Below are positions 35,827 to 58,070 of a stretch of 64,000 nt of DNA, one piece after another. The stretch lies in contig NZ_BBWJ01000006.1 in NCBI RefSeq assembly GCF_001463745.1, positions 1 to 64,000 on the forward strand. Direction: 5' to 3'. This DNA is from Aureimonas sp. AU22 (GTDB taxonomy: Bacteria > Pseudomonadota > Alphaproteobacteria > Rhizobiales > Rhizobiaceae). The position numbers were made by a program, and so were the translations under genes. The notes below the pieces were generated by a model. The model had not been told where the DNA came from, did not search any database, and worked only from the letters and a program-made list of their open reading frames with translations. Position 1 is the first letter of the stretch. Every line of letters starts with the position of its first letter.

Positions 35827-37782
35827 ATGCTGCCTCGCCTCCTGTCCCTCCTGCCCCGCGGCTCGTTCCGCTCGCTCGGCATCGTGCACGACGTCCTGGT
35901 GGCGGCGGTCGCCATCTCGCTGGCGCTCGGCCTCGCGTTCGGTTTCCGCATCACCTTCAACAACTGGCAGATCTGGTCGCTGATCGTCGCCTTCACGGCC
36001 TTGTCGGCCGCGATGTTCCCGCTCTTCTCGCTCAACAGCGGCGCGTGGCGTTACGCCTCGCTCCTCGACGTCTTGTCCATCGTGAAGGCGGTGACGGCGA
36101 TCAACGTCGTGTTCCTAGCCGGCCACTTCATCCTGTTCCGCGGCCTCTACCTGCCCCGATCCTCGCTGGTGATGACGTGGTTCATCATGATCGTCGGGCT
36201 CGGCGGCCCGCGCCTTGCGTATCGCCTGTGGAAGGAGCGCGGCCTGTCGGCGCGCTTCTTCGACACGAGCGGCATCCGGGTGCCCGTCGAGAACGTCGTG
36301 ATCTACGGTTTCACCGACAATGCCGATCTCTTCATCCGCGACGCGCGCCGCTCCCACCACGGCGTCCATCTTCTCGGCCTCGTGGACGACAAGCCGAAGA
36401 ACCAGGGCCGCCAGCTCCACGGCGTGAAGGTGCTGGGCTCGCTCGCCGACCTTCCGGAGATCGCTCGCCGGGCGGAGCTCGGCGCGACACCGATCAACCA
36501 GCTCATCGTCGCCAAGGGGCAGGTGCCCCCTGCCGAACTCTCGGCCGTCGTGGAGGTCGCCGCGCCCCTGAAGATCGCGGTGAAGCGTCTGCCCGACATT
36601 TCTCGCGCCGGCGATCTCGGCGAGACGCCGATCGAGGTCCTGCCCGTATCGCTCGAGGACCTTCTCGGGCGCCACGAGATCCGCCTCGACATCGAGGAGG
36701 TGGCGCGACTGATCGAGGGCCGCTGCATCGCGGTGACGGGCGCCGGCGGCTCCATCGGCTCCGAGCTCGTCGCGCAGATCGCCTCCTTCGGCCCGAAGCG
36801 CCTCGTGCTCATCGATGCCGGCGAGTTCAACCTCTACACGGTCGGCCGCCGCATGGCCGATCACCATGCCCACGTCGAGACGGTGGAGCGCGTCGCCGAC
36901 GTGCGCCAGCGCGAGCGGATCCTGGCGATCTTCGACGAATGGCGGCCGGAGGTAATCTTCCACGCCGCGGCACTCAAGCACGTGCCGATCGTGGAAGAGA
37001 ACCCGCTGGAGGGGATCGAAACCAATCTCCTCGGCTCGCGCAACGTGGCGGACGCCGCGCTTGCCTGCGGCGCGCTCGCCTTCGTCATGGTCTCCACCGA
37101 CAAGGCGGTGAACCCGACCAACGTGATGGGTGCCACCAAGCGCGCGGCGGAGGCCTATTGCCAGGCGCTGGATCTCGGCCAGGCCGGCACCCGGTTCATG
37201 ACGGTGCGCTTCGGCAACGTCATGGGCTCCGCCGGTTCGGTGATCCCGCTGTTCCAGAGCCAGCTGGCGCGCGGCGGGCCGCTGACCGTCACCGATCCCG
37301 ACATCACCCGCTTCTTCATGACGATTCCGGAAGCCTCGCGGCTGATCCTTCACGCCGCCGGCCACGGCATCGCCGACCGGGCGGCGGAAGGGCAGATCTT
37401 CGTGCTCGACATGGGCGAGCCGATCCGCATCACCGAGCTTGCCGAGCGCCTGATCCAGCTGGCGGGCCTCAGGCCCCACAAGGACATCGCGATCGAATAT
37501 ACCGGGCTTCGCAAGGGCGAGAAGCTCTACGAGGAACTCTTCGGCGAGGGTGAGACGCGAGAGGATACCGGGCTCCCCGGCCTCCTGATCGCCCGCTCGC
37601 GCGTCTCCGACGTCGCCTTCCTCAACGCCCGTTTCGAGGCGATCGCCGGCGCGCTGGCGAGAGGTGATGCGAGCCGGGCGATCGAACTCCTGTCCGAGGT
37701 CGTGCCGGAGTTCGGACGCGCTCGCCTGTCCAACGCCGCGTCGCTCAACCCGGCCCTCGCCGCGCCCCGGGCGGGGGCCTGA
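35827..37782 (+). CDS. Membrane-bound UDP-sugar 4,6-dehydratase/epimerase (PglF/WbpM/CapD family)
   Basis: About 650 residues. Four N-terminal helices anchor it in the membrane (from [20 protein letters not shown]), then a CoA-binding-like Rossmann domain ([13 protein letters not shown]) precedes the catalytic SDR domain with [16 protein letters not shown]. The active site [17 protein letters not shown] is the Ser/Met/Lys-type site of WbpM, PglF and FlaA1. These enzymes make 4-keto-6-deoxy UDP-HexNAc for polysaccharides and glycans. A GTG start at 35779, with AGAGG upstream, is an alternative. It begins the surface polysaccharide locus and ends six bases from the convergent Wzz-like gene. Confidence 0.93.
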
Positions 37783-37788
37783 GCCCCC
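37773..37788. terminator. Hairpin at convergent gene ends
   Basis: GGGGGC-CTGA-GCCCCC lies across the end of the epimerase gene and just before the stop of the opposing gene. It is symmetric and could serve both strands, but there is no T-run. Confidence 0.3.
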
Positions 37789-39972
37789 TCAGCCCCGATC
37801 GACCTCGGCCTGCGTCAGCGTCGAAGCGGCCTCGCTTCGGCGGCCACGGGCCGCAGCCAGGCGAAGGCTGATGCGCTCGCGCCGCTCCACCGCCGTCATG
37901 CTCTCGCCGCCGGCAGCGGCAAGATCCGGCGCGGCCGCCGTCGCGCGCCCTGTGCGGCGAACGCCGAGCTCGCGGATTCGCTGGCGCAACGCCTCGCGCC
38001 GCGCCTCGATCTCCGTCATCTCGCCGGGGAACGCAGCGGCTGGCGTCGTCTCGTCCGCCACCGCTTGGTCGTCGCAGGGCATCTCGAGGGGCTCGGCGGT
38101 CTGATCCGCGTCTTCGATCGCCTGCACCGGCGCTTCCGCAGCGGCCACCGGCTCGTCGTGGGTGCCGTCGGCATTTCCGACCGCCATGGGGTCGGCGGCG
38201 ACGTCGTTTTCTTCGGCCGCTTCAGCCCGAAGCTCCGGGTCTCGTCCTCGCGTTTCGCTTTCGCCGCTGGCCTCCGGGTGGTCGAACGTGCCGCCCCGCA
38301 GCGACCAATCCCCTTCGGCGGGATCGAGGGCCGGCGCAGCGACTTCGGACGCTTCGGCCTCGGCCGGCGCGGCTTCGGCGGCCGGAGCGAAGTTCGGCTC
38401 CGTCGCCGGCCGGCGCATGGGGGCAGCGGCGATATCGTAGGCGCCGTAGGAAAAGGCGGGGCGGAAGGGCTTCGGCTCGTCGGCGATGCGGTCGGCCGCG
38501 ACCGAGGCGGGGGTCGCGGTCCCGCGCAGGGCCCGGACGGCGGCCACCACGAGCGCCAGCGCGACGCCGAGACCGATCCCGCCGATGAGCCCCAGGATGA
38601 CCACCAGCTTGCGCGACAGGCTGGAGGGATGGAACGGCACCGTGGCGTCGGAAATGACGCGCACGTTGGTGGTGTTCAGGCTTTCCTGCTCGCTCGTCTG
38701 GCGCGCGCGCAGAAGATAGGCCTCGTAGACCGCCCGCGAAGCATCGACTTCGCGCTCGAGTTCGCGAAGGCGCACAAAGGCGCCGCTCGTCTCGATCTGG
38801 CGGGTGCGCAGGGTATCGATCTGGCCCGCAAGATCGCGCTCGGTGGCCTGGGCACGGGCGAGCTCGGTCTGCGCCGAGGCGACGATCCGCGACAGCTCCG
38901 TCTCGATGCCGCGCCGCGCCGTCGTCACGGCCTGATCGGCGGCCATGCGCTGCGGATGGCGCGGACCAAGGCGCGAGGCGAGGATCGCCTGGTTCTGGGC
39001 GGCCTCGGAATAGACCTGACGAAGACGCAGCAGCGCCTCCGAGTTCAGCCCCTCGGGGAAGTTGCCGGCGGCGATGTCCTCGACGCTCGCCTCGCGCAGC
39101 GAACGAGCGCGCACGTTGAGGGAGGTGATCTGCGAGCGCACGTCCGCGAGCTGGTTGTTGACGCGCGTGATGTAGTCGTCGTCGATCAGGCGGCCGCCGA
39201 CGCCGACGAGCTGGTTCTGAGCCTTGTAGGCTTCGGCCGCGTCCTCGGCTTCCACCACCCGTGCGCGCAGCTCGGCGAGGCGCGACGACAGGGCGGTCGT
39301 GGCGCGGCGGGCGAGGTCCGACTGCGCCCGGCCCTGCTCGGCGATGAAGATCTGCGTCGTCAGATTGGCGAGGCGGGCCGCCTTCTCGGCGTCCTCGCTC
39401 TCCACCGACACGTTGATGACGAAGCTGTTGGCGTTGCGCACGGCGGAGATGTGGCGCCACAGGTTGGTGACGGTGCGCAGTTCGCGCGTGTCGGCGGCCT
39501 GGGCGGGATCGTCCGACGTGAGGGCCGCCACCGTCGCCGACAGGCCGCCGAGCCAGCTCTGGCGCAGGCCATTGAACTCGGTGTCGGCGGTGAGGTCGGC
39601 CTCGCGCACCACGCGCAGAAGCACGCTGTTCGACGTCATCACCGCGATCTGGCTTTCCACGAGAGCCAGCGCCGCATCCGTGTTGAGCCCGTTCGACGTC
39701 GGCGTCAGTTCGTTCTGAACGAGGTTGAGCTCGCGCGGATCCAGCACGATCTGCGCGGTCGCCGTGTACTGCTTGGGCTGGGACATGGCGAGCGCGCCGG
39801 CCGCCACGGCGCCGACGACGCCCAGAAGCAGGATCTTGCGATGCGCCTTCCAGACGGCGCCGGCGAGATAGGCGGGGTCGAGAAAGCTCTGCTGGCGGCG
39901 CTCGGCGTCCTGCGCCGGGACGGGATCCCAGCGCGAAGCGGGGCGGGATGCGGCATCCTCGGCATAGAACAT
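37789..39972 (-). CDS. Wzz/GumC-family polysaccharide chain-length or export protein, kinase domain absent
   Basis: A 727-residue inner-membrane polysaccharide co-polymerase. An N-terminal helix (about residues 46-64, ILLLGVVGAVAAGALAM) and a second one near 470 (VVILGLIGGIGLGVALALVV) flank a large periplasmic coiled-coil region. QYTATAQIVLDPRELNLVQN and PFHPSSLSRKL are family motifs. Unlike ExoP, no Walker-type tyrosine-kinase domain follows; instead there is a cytoplasmic tail of about 230 residues, acidic and Ala/Glu-rich, closing with basic helices such as LRQRIRELGVRRTG. It is transcribed towards the epimerase gene. Confidence 0.9.
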   Translation of the reverse strand: MFYAEDAASRPASRWDPVPAQDAERRQQSFLDPAYLAGAVWKAHRKILLLGVVGAVAAGALAMSQPKQYTATAQIVLDPRELNLVQNELTPTSNGLNTDAALALVESQIAVMTSNSVLLRVVREADLTADTEFNGLRQSWLGGLSATVAALTSDDPAQAADTRELRTVTNLWRHISAVRNANSFVINVSVESEDAEKAARLANLTTQIFIAEQGRAQSDLARRATTALSSRLAELRARVVEAEDAAEAYKAQNQLVGVGGRLIDDDYITRVNNQLADVRSQITSLNVRARSLREASVEDIAAGNFPEGLNSEALLRLRQVYSEAAQNQAILASRLGPRHPQRMAADQAVTTARRGIETELSRIVASAQTELARAQATERDLAGQIDTLRTRQIETSGAFVRLRELEREVDASRAVYEAYLLRARQTSEQESLNTTNVRVISDATVPFHPSSLSRKLVVILGLIGGIGLGVALALVVAAVRALRGTATPASVAADRIADEPKPFRPAFSYGAYDIAAAPMRRPATEPNFAPAAEAAPAEAEASEVAAPALDPAEGDWSLRGGTFDHPEASGESETRGRDPELRAEAAEENDVAADPMAVGNADGTHDEPVAAAEAPVQAIEDADQTAEPLEMPCDDQAVADETTPAAAFPGEMTEIEARREALRQRIRELGVRRTGRATAAAPDLAAAGGESMTAVERRERISLRLAAARGRRSEAASTLTQAEVDRG

Positions 39973-41207: not shown

Positions 41208-42500
41208 ATGCGACGCCCCGGATTCCTGACAGGAAGTCTTGAAGCAAAGCTGAACATGGCGCGCGACTACGCCAAGCTCCTCGGCGGGTCGGGCGGGCGC
41301 CTCGTTCTGTCGCTCGCCTATTTCACCGCCGTCGCCAATGTCCTCACCGTGTCGGAGTTCGGCCTCTTCGCCACCGCCTCGGCCACCGGCATCGTCCTGT
41401 CGCGCATCGCCGGTCTCGGCTTCGTCTCGCCGCTCTACCGCTCGGCGACGCGCAAGCCCCAGCTCGTCGGAACCTACACGGCCGGGCTCCTGGCCGCCTT
41501 CGCCCTGTCTCTGCCGCTTGTGGCACTGGCCGGCGCCCTGTTCTTTCTCGGCGTCTTCGCCGGCGACATGGCGCCCCTGCCCTTCGCAGCCATCGTGGCG
41601 GCGGAAGTGGTCTGCTGGCGGGCGCTGGAGGTCGTCTGCATCGTCAACAACGGCATGAACCGCTTCGGGCGCGCCTCCGTGCTCGTGGTGGCGGGCACGG
41701 GCGCCAAGGCGCTCGCCGCCCTTCTGTTCGCCGGAACGGTCGGCCGCGAGGGCGGGCTCGCCGCCTGGAGCCTCTTCTACCTCGCGGCCAACGGCGCGGC
41801 GGCGCTCGGCGGCATCGTCCTCCTCTACCCGCGCCAGCGCCTGCGCTGGCGCCCCGATCTCTACCGCCGCCGGGCCGCCGACAGCTTCGCCGTGGCGGGC
41901 GCCGAGGCGCTCTTCTATCTCCAGTCCGAACTCGACAAGCTCCTGGTCCTGTCGCTCGGCGGACCGCACGTCGCCGGTCTCTACGCCATGCTGATGCGCC
42001 TCGTGGACCTCACGGCCCTGCCGGTCCGCTCGTTCAACATGATGGCGGTGCAGGCGTTGATGCGTCGGCCGGATCGCCTGGATTCGTGGCGCGTGCGCTG
42101 GGGGGTGGAGGCCGGCATCGCCCTCGTGTCCGCCGGGGGCCTCGCCGCGCTCGGCCTCGTTCTGCACGTTCGACCGACGCTGCTGGGCGCCAACGTCGCC
42201 GACGCCGCGCCCCTTGTGCTGATGGCGCTTCTGGTCCCCGCCTTCCGCAACCTCGTGGAATACGAGGGCGAGCTTCTCTACGCCCGCGGTCGCACGGGTG
42301 TGCGGGCCACCATCCTCGCGTTCCTGACGGTGATGAAGGGCGGGCTCTTGACGCTGGTGCTCGGCGGCGGTCAGGCGACCGGCGACACGGCCTGGGTGCT
42401 CGGCCTCAACGGCGTCTTCGCCGCCCTCTGGCTGGCGTCAGCCATGTCGACCTACATGGCGCTTGACATGCGCCGTGCGCCGCTGCCGCGTCCGGCCTGA
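41208..42500 (+). CDS. Wzx-like polysaccharide flippase (oligosaccharide/polysaccharide exporter superfamily)
   Basis: A 430-residue protein with about 12 membrane helices and the MATE/OPX-like N-terminus GGRLVLSLAYFTAVANVLTV followed by FGLFATASATGIVLSRIAGL. Members move lipid-linked repeat units across the inner membrane. The middle QSELDKLLVLSLGG segment resembles Wzx and PST exporters. AAGGTG lies eight bases before ATG 41208. The stop codon TGA directly abuts the stop of the next, opposing gene with no base between. Confidence 0.86.
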   Translation: MRRPGFLTGSLEAKLNMARDYAKLLGGSGGRLVLSLAYFTAVANVLTVSEFGLFATASATGIVLSRIAGLGFVSPLYRSATRKPQLVGTYTAGLLAAFALSLPLVALAGALFFLGVFAGDMAPLPFAAIVAAEVVCWRALEVVCIVNNGMNRFGRASVLVVAGTGAKALAALLFAGTVGREGGLAAWSLFYLAANGAAALGGIVLLYPRQRLRWRPDLYRRRAADSFAVAGAEALFYLQSELDKLLVLSLGGPHVAGLYAMLMRLVDLTALPVRSFNMMAVQALMRRPDRLDSWRVRWGVEAGIALVSAGGLAALGLVLHVRPTLLGANVADAAPLVLMALLVPAFRNLVEYEGELLYARGRTGVRATILAFLTVMKGGLLTLVLGGGQATGDTAWVLGLNGVFAALWLASAMSTYMALDMRRAPLPRPA

Positions 42501-48465: not shown

Positions 48466-48593
48466 CGGCGACGAGGCAGACGACATGGAAAGGGCGATGG
48501 TCGCCGGCCGTGCGAGCCCCGCCGCCAGCGGCCGAAGCTTGCGGGCCGGGACGAATCGTGGCTCCTGCAGATCAGAGATCCAGGGATAGATCG

Positions 48594-50123
48594 ATGCGGC
48601 ACGACGCGTCCTCCAGCTCAGACAACGCCGCCGGCGCCCGCCAGCGCCCGCAGCGCATGGGCGCCCTCGCGACCCTCCCCATCTTCTTCGATCTGAGGGC
48701 CAAGCGCGCCGTGATGGCCGGCGGCACGGACGGCGCAGCCTGGAAGGCCGAACTCCTGGCCGCATCCGGAGCCACCGTCGACCTGTATTGCCCCGCTGCC
48801 GAGATCGGCGATGAAATGCGCGTGGTTCTCGAGCTCCCCTATCCGGACGGCGCGATCCGGCACCACGACCGCCCCTGGGGCACGGATATCTTCCCGGCCG
48901 CCGCCCTGGCCGTCGCCGACTGCGAAACGGATGCCGAGGCGAAGGCCTTCTTCTGCGCCGCCCAGGCGGCCGGCGTACCCGTCAACGTGATCGACAAGCC
49001 GCCGTTCTGCCAGTTCCGCTTCGGCACGATCGTCAACCGCTCGCCCGTGGTCGTCGGCATCTCGACGGACGGGGCGGCGCCGATCCTCGGCCAGGCGATC
49101 CGCCGCCGCATCGAGACGCTGCTGCCCGCCACCCTCGCCGGATGGGCGAAGATGGCGGCGCGCGTGCGGGCCGAGGTGATGGACCGACTTCAACCGGGGC
49201 CGGCACGCCGCGCCTTCTGGGAGCGTTTCTCCGACGACGCCTTCACGCGCCGCGTGCCGGACGAGACGGCCGAACTCGAGGCGCGTGCCTTCGTGCGCGA
49301 ACTCTCCGCCCGCCCCCAGGCCGGCGGCCGCGTCACCCTGGTCGGAGCGGGACCGGGCGATGCCGAACTCCTGACGCTCAAGGCCGTCCGCGCGCTTCAG
49401 GCCGCCGACGTCATTCTCTTCGACGATCTCGTCTCGGATGACATCCTGGAGCTCGCCCGCCGCGAGGCCAAGCGCATGCTCGTCGGCAAGCGGGGCGGAC
49501 GCGAAAGCTGCCGCCAGGAGGACATCAACGCGATGATGACCCGCTTCGCGCATGCCGGGAAGCATGTCGTGCGGCTGAAGTCGGGCGACGTGTCCGTGTT
49601 CGGTCGCTCGGGCGAGGAGATCGCGGACCTTCGCGCGCAGGGCATTCCCGTCGCCATCGTGCCGGGCATCACGGCGGCATCGGCGATGGCCGGCGCCTTC
49701 GGCGTCTCGCTCACCCACCGCGACCGCGCCCAGCAGGTGCGCTTCGTCACCGCCCACTCGCAGAAGGGCGACCTGCCGGACGAGATGGACTGGCGGGCCC
49801 TCGCCGACGACCATGCCACCACGATCTTCTACATGGGCGGGCGGATGGCCTCGCGCATCGCCGAGCAGCTCATCGCGCATGGCCTGGCGGGGGAAACGCC
49901 GGTGGCCGTCGCGGCCGCCCTGTCGCGACCGGACGAGATCCGAGCGGTCGGCACCCTGTCGCAGCTCGGCGAGATCGTCGGGCACGTCGGCATCGATCGC
50001 CCCATCCTCATCGGCGTCGGCCGCGTCTTCGCCGATGTCGAGGCCGCAGCGCTTCTCGGTTACGAACCGGAGCGGCTCGATCCCTCTCGCCAAACCTCGC
50101 GCCTTCAGGCAAAGGCCGTCTGA
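48594..50123 (+). CDS. cysG: Siroheme synthase (trifunctional)
   Basis: A 509-residue fusion. The N-terminal half is the precorrin-2 dehydrogenase/ferrochelatase (LPIFFDLRAKRAVMAGGTDG, a diverged NAD motif, then VNVIDKPPFCQFRFGTI and GISTDGAAPILGQAI). The C-terminal half is uroporphyrinogen-III methyltransferase with VTLVGAGPGDAELLTLKAV, GKRGGRESCRQEDINAMM and VVRLKSGDVSVFGRSGEE. It makes siroheme for sulfite or nitrite reductase; neither enzyme is in the window. ATG 48594 has AGGGAT just upstream. It is followed after 18 bases by a small kinase gene. Confidence 0.95.
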   Translation: MRHDASSSSDNAAGARQRPQRMGALATLPIFFDLRAKRAVMAGGTDGAAWKAELLAASGATVDLYCPAAEIGDEMRVVLELPYPDGAIRHHDRPWGTDIFPAAALAVADCETDAEAKAFFCAAQAAGVPVNVIDKPPFCQFRFGTIVNRSPVVVGISTDGAAPILGQAIRRRIETLLPATLAGWAKMAARVRAEVMDRLQPGPARRAFWERFSDDAFTRRVPDETAELEARAFVRELSARPQAGGRVTLVGAGPGDAELLTLKAVRALQAADVILFDDLVSDDILELARREAKRMLVGKRGGRESCRQEDINAMMTRFAHAGKHVVRLKSGDVSVFGRSGEEIADLRAQGIPVAIVPGITAASAMAGAFGVSLTHRDRAQQVRFVTAHSQKGDLPDEMDWRALADDHATTIFYMGGRMASRIAEQLIAHGLAGETPVAVAAALSRPDEIRAVGTLSQLGEIVGHVGIDRPILIGVGRVFADVEAAALLGYEPERLDPSRQTSRLQAKAV

Positions 50124-54713: not shown

Positions 54714-55406
54714 ATGGCTAAGATCACCACGTTGGCGGCTGGCACCAAGAGCAACGTCACGCAGCAGCCTGTGGCGGTCGACCTGTCCCGCCCGGTCGGC
54801 GGTTCGCTCAAGCGGGCGGTCGACGTCACCTTGACGATCGGCGCGCTGCTCGTGCTCAGCCCGCTCATGCTCCTCATCATCGTCGCCATGAAGATCAGCG
54901 ACCCCGGTCCGGTCTTCTTCGGCCACAAGCGCGTCGGCTTCGACGGACGTCATTTCCGCTGCTACAAGTTCCGCTCCATGGCGACGAACTCGGCGGAGCT
55001 GCTTCAGCGCCTGCTGCAGAGCGACCCGGCCGCGCGTGCCGAATGGGAGGCGACGCAGAAGCTGCGCGACGATCCTCGCGTCACCCGCCTCGGACGCCTC
55101 CTGCGCGAGACGAGCCTCGACGAACTCCCGCAGCTCTTCAACGTCCTGCGCGGCGAGATGAGCCTGATCGGTCCGCGCCCGATCGTGGACGAGGAGGTGC
55201 ACCGCTACACGCACCGCTTCGAGGCCTACAAGCGCACCCGCCCCGGCGTTACCGGCATGTGGCAGGTCAACGGGCGCTCCAACACGAGCTACGCTTCGCG
55301 CGTGAAGTTCGACACCTACTACGTCCGACACTGGTCGCTGTGGCTCGACATCCAGATCCTGTTCAAGACGGTCAAGGTCGTCATGAACCGCGAAGGCAGC
55401 TGCTGA
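54714..55406 (+). CDS. Undecaprenyl-phosphate sugar phosphotransferase (ExoY/WbaP-type initiating enzyme)
   Basis: A 230-residue bacterial sugar transferase. The membrane re-entrant helix begins after KRAVDV (residues about 34-57), then [20 protein letters not shown], the catalytic [24 protein letters not shown] and [14 protein letters not shown] follow, all family hallmarks. It transfers a sugar phosphate to the lipid carrier to start polymer synthesis; the size and sequence fit ExoY, a galactose-1-phosphate enzyme, but the sugar is not proven. It stands 8 kb from the other polysaccharide genes, followed by a strong terminator. Confidence 0.93.
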
Positions 55407-55515: not shown

Positions 55516-56367
55516 ATGACGTCCGCTTCCGCCCCCTCGCCCGCCCGCCTCGACCTCGACGCGCTCGTCGACCCCCTCGCCGACCTCGCGATGGAGGCCG
55601 GCGCCTGCATCATGCGTCATTACCGGCCGGACGTCGCCGTCTCCCGAAAGGGCGACGGCTCGCCGGTGACGCAGGCCGATTGCGAGGCCGAAGCGGTGAT
55701 CCTGGCGGGTCTGCGGCGACTGGCGCCCGGCGTGCCCGTGGTTGCGGAAGAGGAGGCCGCGGCCGGCCGCGTGCCGGACGCCTGCCCTCGGTTCTTCCTC
55801 GTCGATCCGCTCGATGGAACGCGCGAGTTCATCACGGGCAACGGCGAGTTCACAGTCAACATCGCCCTCGTCGAGAACGGCGTGCCGGTACTCGGCGTGG
55901 TGTTCGCGCCCGCGATCGGCCGATTGTTCGCGGCTAGCCCGTCCGGAGCATGGCGGAGCGAAGGCGATGGTGAACGCCACGCGATCGGGGTGCGCGCGGC
56001 TCCCGGCGCGCTCACCGTGGTCGGGTCGCGCAGCCATGGATCGCAGGAGACGGAGACCTTCCTCCAGGGCCTCCCCGTCGCGGGCTTCGCCGCCTGCGGA
56101 TCGTCGCTCAAGTTCTGCCTCCTGGCGGCAGGCGAGGCCGATCTCTACCCCCGGTTCGGCCGCACGATGGAGTGGGACACGGCGGCTGGCGATGCGATCC
56201 TGCGGTCGGCCGGCGGTCTCGTGACGACCTGCGACGGCGAGGCGCTCCTCTATGGCAAGCGCGAACAGGAAGGCGACTGCGACTTCGCCAACCCGCATTT
56301 TCTCGCCTTCGGCGATCCCGCCCTCCTGCGGCTCGCCCGCATGGACAGGTCCGTAGCGGCACTCTAA
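55516..56367 (+). CDS. cysQ: 3'(2'),5'-bisphosphate nucleotidase
   Basis: A 283-residue inositol-monophosphatase-fold phosphatase. Metal-site motifs are VTQADCEAE, the VVAEEEAA glutamates, [16 protein letters not shown] and [11 protein letters not shown]. CysQ removes the 3' phosphate of PAP (or PAPS), the by-product of sulfotransferases or PAPS reductase. AGGAAGA precedes ATG 55516. The next gene, 32 bases on, encodes an APS-kinase fusion, so the two enzymes form a PAPS/PAP turnover pair. Confidence 0.95.
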
Positions 56368-56399
56368 TCCGGTGGCGTCCGTCCAGGAGGCCGCCATCC

Positions 56400-58070
56400 A
56401 TGTCCCCATCCGAGCCCGACCAGCCCGGCGCGTTGCGTATCCTCGTATGGGGCCGCACCACGGCGCACGGCTCGCCTCTCGTCTCGCGCCTACGGGCAGC
56501 GGACGGCGAGCGGAGCCCCGCGGTGATTGACCTGCGCGGCGAGACGGACAGTGCCGGCTTCGCACTCGCCGCGTCCCGCTGCGATGTCGCGGTGCTGGTC
56601 ACCGATGCACCGGCCGGCGTCGATCAAGATTTGCGGCAGCGGGTCGGGATCGCGCAGTTGTTGGGGCTCCGGCAGCTGATTCTCGCAATCCACACCGAAG
56701 GCGATACCGGCCCCGGAGCCTTCGCCCGGATCGCCGCCGACTTCACTCGCTTCGCTGAGCCGCTCGGCTTCGCCACATGCCTTGCGATCTCGCTTTCCCC
56801 CGATGCCGTCCCGGGGACCGACGATGGCGACGCCTTGCTTCTCTCTCTCCTCGAAGGTGCTCGGATCGCCCCCGAACACGCCGGCATGCCCTTCCGCATG
56901 CCGCTCGACGATGCATCGGAGGGAACCGCGCTCCGGGGAACCGTGGTGTCCGGCCGCGTTCGCCCGGGCGATGCGATCGTGGCGGCGGGATCGGGGCGCG
57001 GCGCGAAGGTTCTCACCGTCAGCACCGCGGGAGCCGAGCGGCCGGAGGCTGTTTCGGGAGAGATGGTCACCCTGCGTGTCGATACGGCGATGGATGCGCT
57101 TGCGGGCGAGGTCCTGGCTTCCGCCGCCGACCGACCGGAGACATGCGACCAGTTCGCCGCGCGCCTCCTGTGGGCGAGCGAGGAACCGCTCCTGCCCGGC
57201 CGCGCCTACCGAATGCAGGTCGGCACGCGGCAGGTTCCCGCCAGCGTCACGCGCATCAAGCATCGGATCGATGCGGCGAATGCCGCGCCGCTTGCCGCCG
57301 GCACGCTCCGGGCCGGGGATACGGGCCAGGTCAACCTGTCGCTTGCCGAAGCGATCGTCTTCGAGCCCTTCGAGCGCAACCGCGCGCTCGGCGCCTTCAC
57401 CCTGTCGGAGCCCCTGTCCGGGCGAACCGTGGCGGCCGGCCGGATCGACTTCGCGCTGCGCCGGGCCGCCAACATCCATCGCCAGGCGATCGACGTGACC
57501 AAGGCGGCGCGGGCGGCCGCCAAGGCGCAGCGCCCTGCGCTCCTGTGGTTCACCGGCCTGTCCGGCTCGGGCAAGTCCACCATCGCCAATCTGGTGGAGA
57601 AGCGCCTCTTCGCGCTCGGTCACCATACCTATCTTCTCGACGGCGACAATGTGCGCCATGGGCTGAACCGGGATCTCGGCTTCACAGCGGAGGATCGTGT
57701 GGAGAACATCCGGCGCGTCGCCGAAACGGCCAAGCTCATGGTGGATGCCGGGCTGATCACGCTCGCGTCGTTCATCTCGCCCTTTCGGGCCGAGCGGCGG
57801 CTGGCGCGCGACCTCCTGGCAGCGGGGGAGTTCATCGAGGTGTTCGTGGATGCGCCGCTCGGCGTCGCCGAGGCGCGGGATCCCAAGGGGCTCTATGCCC
57901 AGGCCCGGGCGGGCCGCATTCCGAACTTCACGGGCATCGACAGCCCCTACGAGGCCCCGGAAGCGCCGGAATTGCACCTGGAGACCGACCGACGGTCGGC
58001 CGAGGCGCTTGCCGACGAGGTCGTCGCCTATCTCGAGCGCGCCGGCTTCCTCGCCCCTGCGAGCGGTTGA
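56400..58070 (+). CDS. Degenerate CysN-like GTPase fused to APS kinase (CysC)
   Basis: A 556-residue CysNC/NodQ-type fusion. Residues about 378-556 are an intact APS kinase: [45 protein letters not shown] and [11 protein letters not shown]. Residues about 165-365 keep the two beta-barrel domains of CysN (FRMPLDDAS, then [16 protein letters not shown]). The first 150 residues align with the CysN GTPase but have lost its motifs: [10 protein letters not shown] replaces GSVDDGKST, DLRGE replaces DTPGH, and IHTEGD replaces the NKMD box. GTP-driven ATP sulfurylase activity is therefore unlikely, and no cysD is present. The intact domain should phosphorylate APS to PAPS. AGGAGG precedes ATG 56400. 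Confidence 0.88.

Follow-up and report, generated by a model that had tools for sequence, protein, structure and literature searches.

Does a CysN GTPase domain that has lost its nucleotide-binding motifs still serve the APS kinase to which it is fused, and where would such a kinase obtain its APS? These questions are raised by a gene in the stretch of Aureimonas sp. AU22 DNA analysed here (contig NZ_BBWJ01000006.1, positions 1 to 64,000; hereafter the window, of 64,000 nucleotides; source genome G000). A sequence-only reading had described the product as a non-catalytic CysN fused to a working APS kinase, and judged by sequence this description is well supported. We interpret the protein as an APS kinase whose CysN moiety is vestigial and GTP-free and which would be fed APS by intact CysDN encoded elsewhere, and put the probability of this interpretation at about 0.8. 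The features of the locus are as follows.

54714..55406, + strand: WbaP/ExoY-like undecaprenyl-phosphate sugar transferase, first gene of a trio (PF02397, 229.2 bits, cut-off 27)
55516..56367, + strand: cysQ, 3'(2'),5'-bisphosphate nucleotidase for PAP recycling (TIGR01331, 281.6 bits, cut-off 228.8)
56385..56390, + strand: AGGAGG, likely ribosome-binding site of the fusion gene, read from the sequence
56400..58070, + strand: pseudo-CysN-APS kinase fusion, ATG at 56400 to stop at 58070, 556 aa
56400..56888, + strand: GTPase remnant, shrunken, without G1, G3, G4 and switch I (residues 1-163)
56451..56480, + strand: ten residues replacing the CysN P-loop (residues 18-27)
56529..56543, + strand: DLRGE replacing DTPGH (residues 44-48)
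56688..56705, + strand: IHTEGD at the NKxD position (residues 97-102)
56889..57119, + strand: CysN beta-barrel domain II, eroded (residues 164-240; boundary by eye)
57120..57464, + strand: CysN beta-barrel domain III, retained (residues 241-355; PF22594, 79.4 bits, cut-off 27)
57465..57530, + strand: linker to the kinase, 22 codons (residues 356-377; boundary by eye)
57531..58067, + strand: intact APS kinase (residues 378-556; P-loop GLSGSGKST 386-394, DGDN 414-417, lid DPKGLY 494-499)

The fused protein and its GTPase remnant

The ATG of the fusion gene lies 32 bases downstream of the cysQ stop codon on the same strand. Aligned intact proteins show GSVDDGKST, DTPGH and NK[IM]D at the positions of residues 18-27, 44-48 and 97-102, and the replacements listed above confirm that the CysN nucleotide motifs are lost from the window protein. 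Besides these point changes, a large deletion has removed the switch I region of intact CysN. In our alignment A3 (50 rows, 16 GTPase-dead and 34 intact) GSVDDGKST, DTPGH and NKID were each absent from all 16 GTPase-dead rows, and exact copies were present in 34/34, 32/34 and 24/34 of the intact rows, respectively. The GSVDDGKST count is no test because most intact rows were selected by that motif; independent motif counts come from 118 classified family loci and 80 named loci listed, given below. The N-terminal domain reached 16.2 bits against PF00009 (GTP_EFTU; cut-off 26.5) compared with 134.6 bits for the intact paralogue L005 of the same genome. The best full-length NCBIfam relative of the fusion is a bifunctional CysN-CysC model, with a score below its cut-off, and both curated CysN models scored below theirs (NF004035, 505.5 of 715 bits; TIGR02034, 185.9 of 336.1 bits). 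A new GTP site made from other residues was considered and is improbable: the seven full-length GTPase-dead rows share only three invariant columns in the GTPase domain (M1, G89, L151) and offer no conserved candidate residues. The GTPase part thus appears dead by sequence and would neither bind nor hydrolyse GTP.

AlphaFold prediction of the whole protein from A3 gave a pLDDT of 88 and a pTM of 0.68. Because A3 includes intact CysN rows, the N-terminal domain was remodelled from the seven GTPase-dead rows only, which yielded the same five strands at a pLDDT of 76 and a pTM of 0.75. Foldseek placed CysN (1zun_B) first for this domain model (E 1.4e-6), and VIA-align also ranked 1zun_B first with a Z score of 15.1 (rmsd 3.0, 150 aligned residues), tied with SelB (14.9) and EF-Tu (14.8). 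For the whole model, 1zun_B was again first in Foldseek, and VIA-align ranked EF1A chains first (Z 33.1) with 1zun_B at rank 14 (Z 30.2). The remnant is therefore predicted to fold still as a smaller translation-factor G domain without the nucleotide loops, and the models portray the N-terminal domain of the window protein as a pseudo-GTPase with the G-domain fold retained and the motifs lost.

The beta-barrel domains had likewise been called intact, which holds for domain III and not for domain II, the latter being present but fast-diverging. Pfam placed the EF1A-type barrel III at residues 251-349 and the APS kinase at residues 379-527 of the 556-residue protein, and PF22594 scored over its cut-off also in all eight GTPase-dead relatives scanned. 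PF03144 (domain II) had no match in the window protein, a result of little weight because L005, the intact control, is under the cut-off too (26 of 30.3 bits). The kinase proved as intact as had been claimed (PF01583, 221.9 of 21.1 bits; TIGR00455, 247.5 of 138.7 bits), and its P-loop lysine, DGDN and DxKGLY are found in all 50 rows of A3. PMC4373884 describes what the P-loop, the DGDN loop and the lysine of the lid do in APS kinase. With these residues in place the window protein should have APS kinase activity and make PAPS.

Distribution and selection

GTPase-dead CysN-APS kinases were found in 11 of 21 Aureimonas genomes (G000, G154, G162, G167, G079, G159, G166, G164, G165, G161 and G157). 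The GTPase domain is cut to about 110 residues in G157 and G165, and absent altogether from G161 and G164, which have the gene at the same sugar transferase-cysQ locus. An apparent TAG in the G161 copy turned out to be the gene's own stop codon (L043, 2818-2820). Four carriers additionally encode an intact CysN-CysC (G000, G159, G162, G164). Among the non-carriers, the only APS kinase match is that of G163, which has no CysN part; the other nine lack any match in the kinase region. A quick tree was built from the barrel III and kinase regions of 71 rows, comprising 16 GTPase-dead rows, 6 that are truncated or damaged and 49 of the 94 intact family loci described below. The 11 dead Aureimonas copies formed one branch of this tree (SH-aLRT 85), and the larger group to which it belongs also includes the intact Aureimonas copies. 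All three motifs were present in 73 of the 80 named loci listed; two could not be classified by script, and the five without G1 are all from Aureimonas genomes already among the carriers. The GTPase-dead fusion is a stable trait of a lineage.

We also searched 151 genomes of the family and classified 118 loci with E values of about 3e-67 or lower among the matches listed; the weaker matches left out cover the CysN part only. All three GTPase motifs are present in 94 of the 118. The remaining 24 comprise two Aureimonas dead copies, five fused copies without GTPase motifs inside contigs (G034, G132, G065 and two in G113), one cut copy (G150), one frameshifted copy, five kinases without barrel III, four copies cut by contig ends, one interrupted by an unknown letter, three missing only the strict NKxD pattern, one with an unknown letter in the P-loop and one with a changed G3. 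Similar GTPase losses occur in three other genera of the family, and the copies of G034 and G132 consist of barrel III and kinase only. On the tree the GTPase-dead label requires at least two changes, most simply three; the placement of L184 (G065) is unsure owing to its long branch. In G034 and G065 a cysQ gene lies next to the fusion. The two GTPase-dead copies of G113 (L185, L186) lie on different contigs, and a Sulfotransfer_3 gene directly follows one of them. In L183 (G057) the CysN-CysC GTPase motifs are out of frame with barrel and kinase, a frameshift in the record or assembly. Plasmid records matching the CysN part numbered 343, all below 60% identity; one of the 20 plasmid matches listed encodes a 640-aa product annotated as adenylyl-sulfate kinase beside cysD.

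Selection was estimated by Nei-Gojobori dN/dS in eight pairs among the seven full-length copies of the 11 GTPase-dead Aureimonas proteins. Values fell along the protein from 0.45-0.87 in the remnant to 0.24-0.59 in domain II, 0.18-0.41 in domain III and 0.08-0.15 in the kinase; since dS exceeded 1 in several comparisons the absolute values are rough, and the order of the domains is the result. No such gradient was seen in the intact CysN-CysC paralogue (five pairs, four sequences), with 0.12-0.33 in the GTPase domain, 0.04-0.21 in domain II, 0.03-0.30 in domain III and 0.11-0.24 in the kinase. The 22-codon linker had values of 0.28 or less in the eight pairs of dead copies, on which nothing rests because the same linker is noisy in the intact paralogue (0.12-0.97).

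These values bear on the suspicion that the fusion gene might be a pseudogene in decay or a product of misassembly. The motifs are indeed gone from the GTPase domain, and the family relative L183, outside the genus, carries its GTPase motifs in another frame. Against this, the fused reading frame is uninterrupted in each of the 11 Aureimonas carriers, a ribosome-binding site precedes the ATG, gene order is kept and the kinase has the lowest dN/dS range of the dead copies. The selection result refutes the pseudogene reading for the kinase part, and we regard an explanation by decay or artefact as exceedingly improbable.

By dN/dS, no part of the fusion protein is less constrained than the GTPase remnant. 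The remnant is not wholly unconstrained, as the upper bootstrap limit of pN/pS lay below 1 in six of the eight pairs; together with the predicted fold, this makes a weak residual role possible. One such role would be that of a regulatory domain sensing another ligand, for example a sulfur nucleotide, through a rebuilt site and thereby tuning the kinase. A fold predicted at a pLDDT of 76 from degenerate rows only and the pN/pS limits would fit such a domain, but the three invariant columns reveal no conserved new site and the domain is deleted in two sister species, so that we consider ligand sensing quite improbable. The proposal that the CysN part had become a scaffold or regulator stays hypothetical, and the remnant is better called vestigial because it is the least constrained part and has been deleted in two Aureimonas species.

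APS supply, barrel III and the use of PAPS

An APS kinase with a vestigial CysN moiety would depend on APS made elsewhere. The observation that no cysD is present holds for the window and fails for the genome: the search for a second intact cysDN, which the sequence-only reading had suggested, returned two cysD genes (PF01507; C41:38936-39619 and C32:144995-145678), each next to an intact CysN. The three PF01507 matches of the genome are on C41 and C32 with none on the window contig C6, and hence there is no CysD beside the fusion. A CysD-level PF01507 match (192 bits or more) was found in all 21 Aureimonas genomes, with two in each of the four that have the intact CysN-CysC.

With CysD present throughout the 21 genomes searched, the CysN part might act as a scaffold that docks CysD or CysDN without GTP and passes APS directly to the fused kinase. 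Purifying selection on barrel III in the seven copies compared and the CysN-like predicted fold of the remnant are in line with docking. However, PMC5770160 reports a cluster of CysN residues near switch I and II next to the region that contacts CysD, and switch I is deleted here; in two Aureimonas proteins the whole GTPase domain is gone. Barrel III is moreover kept in G034, G132, G065 and G150, genomes of two genera (loci L181, L182, L184 and L193) in which PF01507, covering CysD or CysH, had no match; in G113 both CysD and CysH are present. With no recognisable CysD in these four genomes, CysD docking cannot explain the persistence of barrel III there, and we hold a docking scaffold to be unlikely in the window protein. 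A scan with motif patterns for Sat, CysD and sulfotransferase, which covered about 0.4 of the 3.9 Mb of G034 and smaller stretches of G065, G132, G150 and G113, had no match in them; the sulfotransferase pattern also missed the PF13469 gene of L186, and the CysD pattern matched only L288, a plasmid that carries cysD.

Of the CysN domains, barrel III shows the clearest constraint. APS kinases without barrel III occur in the same family (L188, L189, L266-L268), so the kinase does not generally depend on it. A structural or stability role may account for its retention. More tentatively, barrel III, freed from the GTPase, could be an accessory module of APS kinase in its own right that several separate lineages have retained even without recognisable CysD. 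It would then dock the kinase to some partner outside the sulfurylase, for instance a glycan-sulfation machinery with an unrecognised sulfotransferase; we consider this idea possible, though not likely.

Under the preferred reading of an APS kinase with a vestigial CysN moiety, the ancestor would have been an ordinary CysN-CysC fusion. GTPase function was probably lost in the ancestor of one Aureimonas lineage, once cysD no longer adjoined the gene and intact CysDN elsewhere supplied APS. Afterwards the GTPase domain would have drifted, shrunk or vanished and barrel II loosened, with barrel III (less strictly), the linker and the kinase kept by selection. APS would reach the kinase by diffusion from CysDN, and the adjacent CysQ would remove PAP.

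The identities of CysQ and the sugar transferase, as first read, are confirmed by TIGR01331 and PF02397. The genome's best cysQ match adjoins the fusion in nine of the 11 carriers, G000 included, and the sugar transferase is there in the same nine (eight of the ten carriers other than G000). The fusions of G157 and G165 have another setting, alongside ABC transporter genes and a gene whose sequence resembles a sugar nucleotidylyltransferase. The conserved gene trio lends support to the suggested PAPS/PAP cycle with CysQ. A siroheme synthase gene, cysG (NF007922 over cut-off), related to sulfur assimilation, lies at 48510-50123 of the window, about 4.6 kb upstream of the trio.

The PAPS is probably not for cysteine synthesis because CysH of G000, the one CysH scanned, passes the APS-reductase model TIGR02055 (243 bits, cut-off 235.3); it is below the cut-off of TIGR00434. 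It also carries CC and CxxC motifs, whose cysteines we take to bear on the APS-reductase assignment. Cysteine synthesis is thus disfavoured, though not absolutely, as the protein also scores 257 bits (cut-off 154) against NF002537, whose name is phosphoadenylyl-sulfate reductase.

Sulfation of a surface polymer had been proposed as a possible use. PF00685 (Sulfotransfer_1) was matched in four of the 21 genomes, exactly those with the intact CysN-CysC, PF13469 in five and PF09037 in one (G157). The five genomes with a recognised sulfotransferase all belong to the 11 carriers, and the ten other genomes have none. Six carriers had no match to PF00685, PF13469 or PF09037, nor did the window contig. 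PF03567 and PF19798 had no match in the 21 genomes, with the controls for both models equally silent, so that this result says nothing against the presence of such genes. In G000 the best-scoring recognised sulfotransferases lie beside the intact cysDNC on another contig than the window, with the intact cysD-cysNC flanked by PF00685 genes at 37573-38292 and 41795-42334 (C41:37573-42334; L096, L001, L005). In G159 and G162 the intact pair likewise has PF00685 genes within about 5 kb on both sides, and in G164 on one side. The C41 locus is more likely than the window to be the sulfation locus of G000. Sulfation is plausible, and the link of the fusion gene to a sulfated surface polymer is suggestive at most.

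Comparison with known systems

No description of a GTPase-dead CysN-APS kinase was found among the titles and abstract openings of the open PMC papers listed. The graded natural series from intact to motif-less, shrunken and deleted forms captures a translation-factor GTPase dying inside a fusion whose partner enzyme remains under selection. Two questions become testable with it: of what use CysN barrel III is to an APS kinase without GTPase or CysD, and what consumes PAPS in species without a recognised sulfotransferase. Annotation is affected as well: by similarity, such proteins might receive the name sulfate adenylyltransferase even though the part that activates the sulfurylase appears dead.

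The closest known systems are CysN-CysC and NodQ (NF004035, TIGR02034; PDB 1zun_B for the CysN part, 4bzp for M. tuberculosis CysC), which have the same domain order and are homologous over the length of barrel III, linker and APS kinase. The window protein differs from them in having no GTP-binding motifs and no switch I, in scoring under the curated cut-offs and in having no cysD on its contig. Compared with stand-alone CysC (PF01583, TIGR00455), the kinase is over the cut-offs with the key residues kept, and the CysN-derived N-terminal half is extra. A published parallel to the G-domain disruption, from a different subfamily, is found in the archaeal SelB-like factors (aSelBL), for which PMC3037878 describes a stepwise disruption of the G domain with domains II and III better conserved. 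By that account G2 and G3 of aSelBL are altered but conserved and the change is not general decay, whereas no motif is conserved in the window lineage. Unlike aSelBL as presented there, the window protein is fused to a metabolic kinase, and the domain has been deleted outright in some species.
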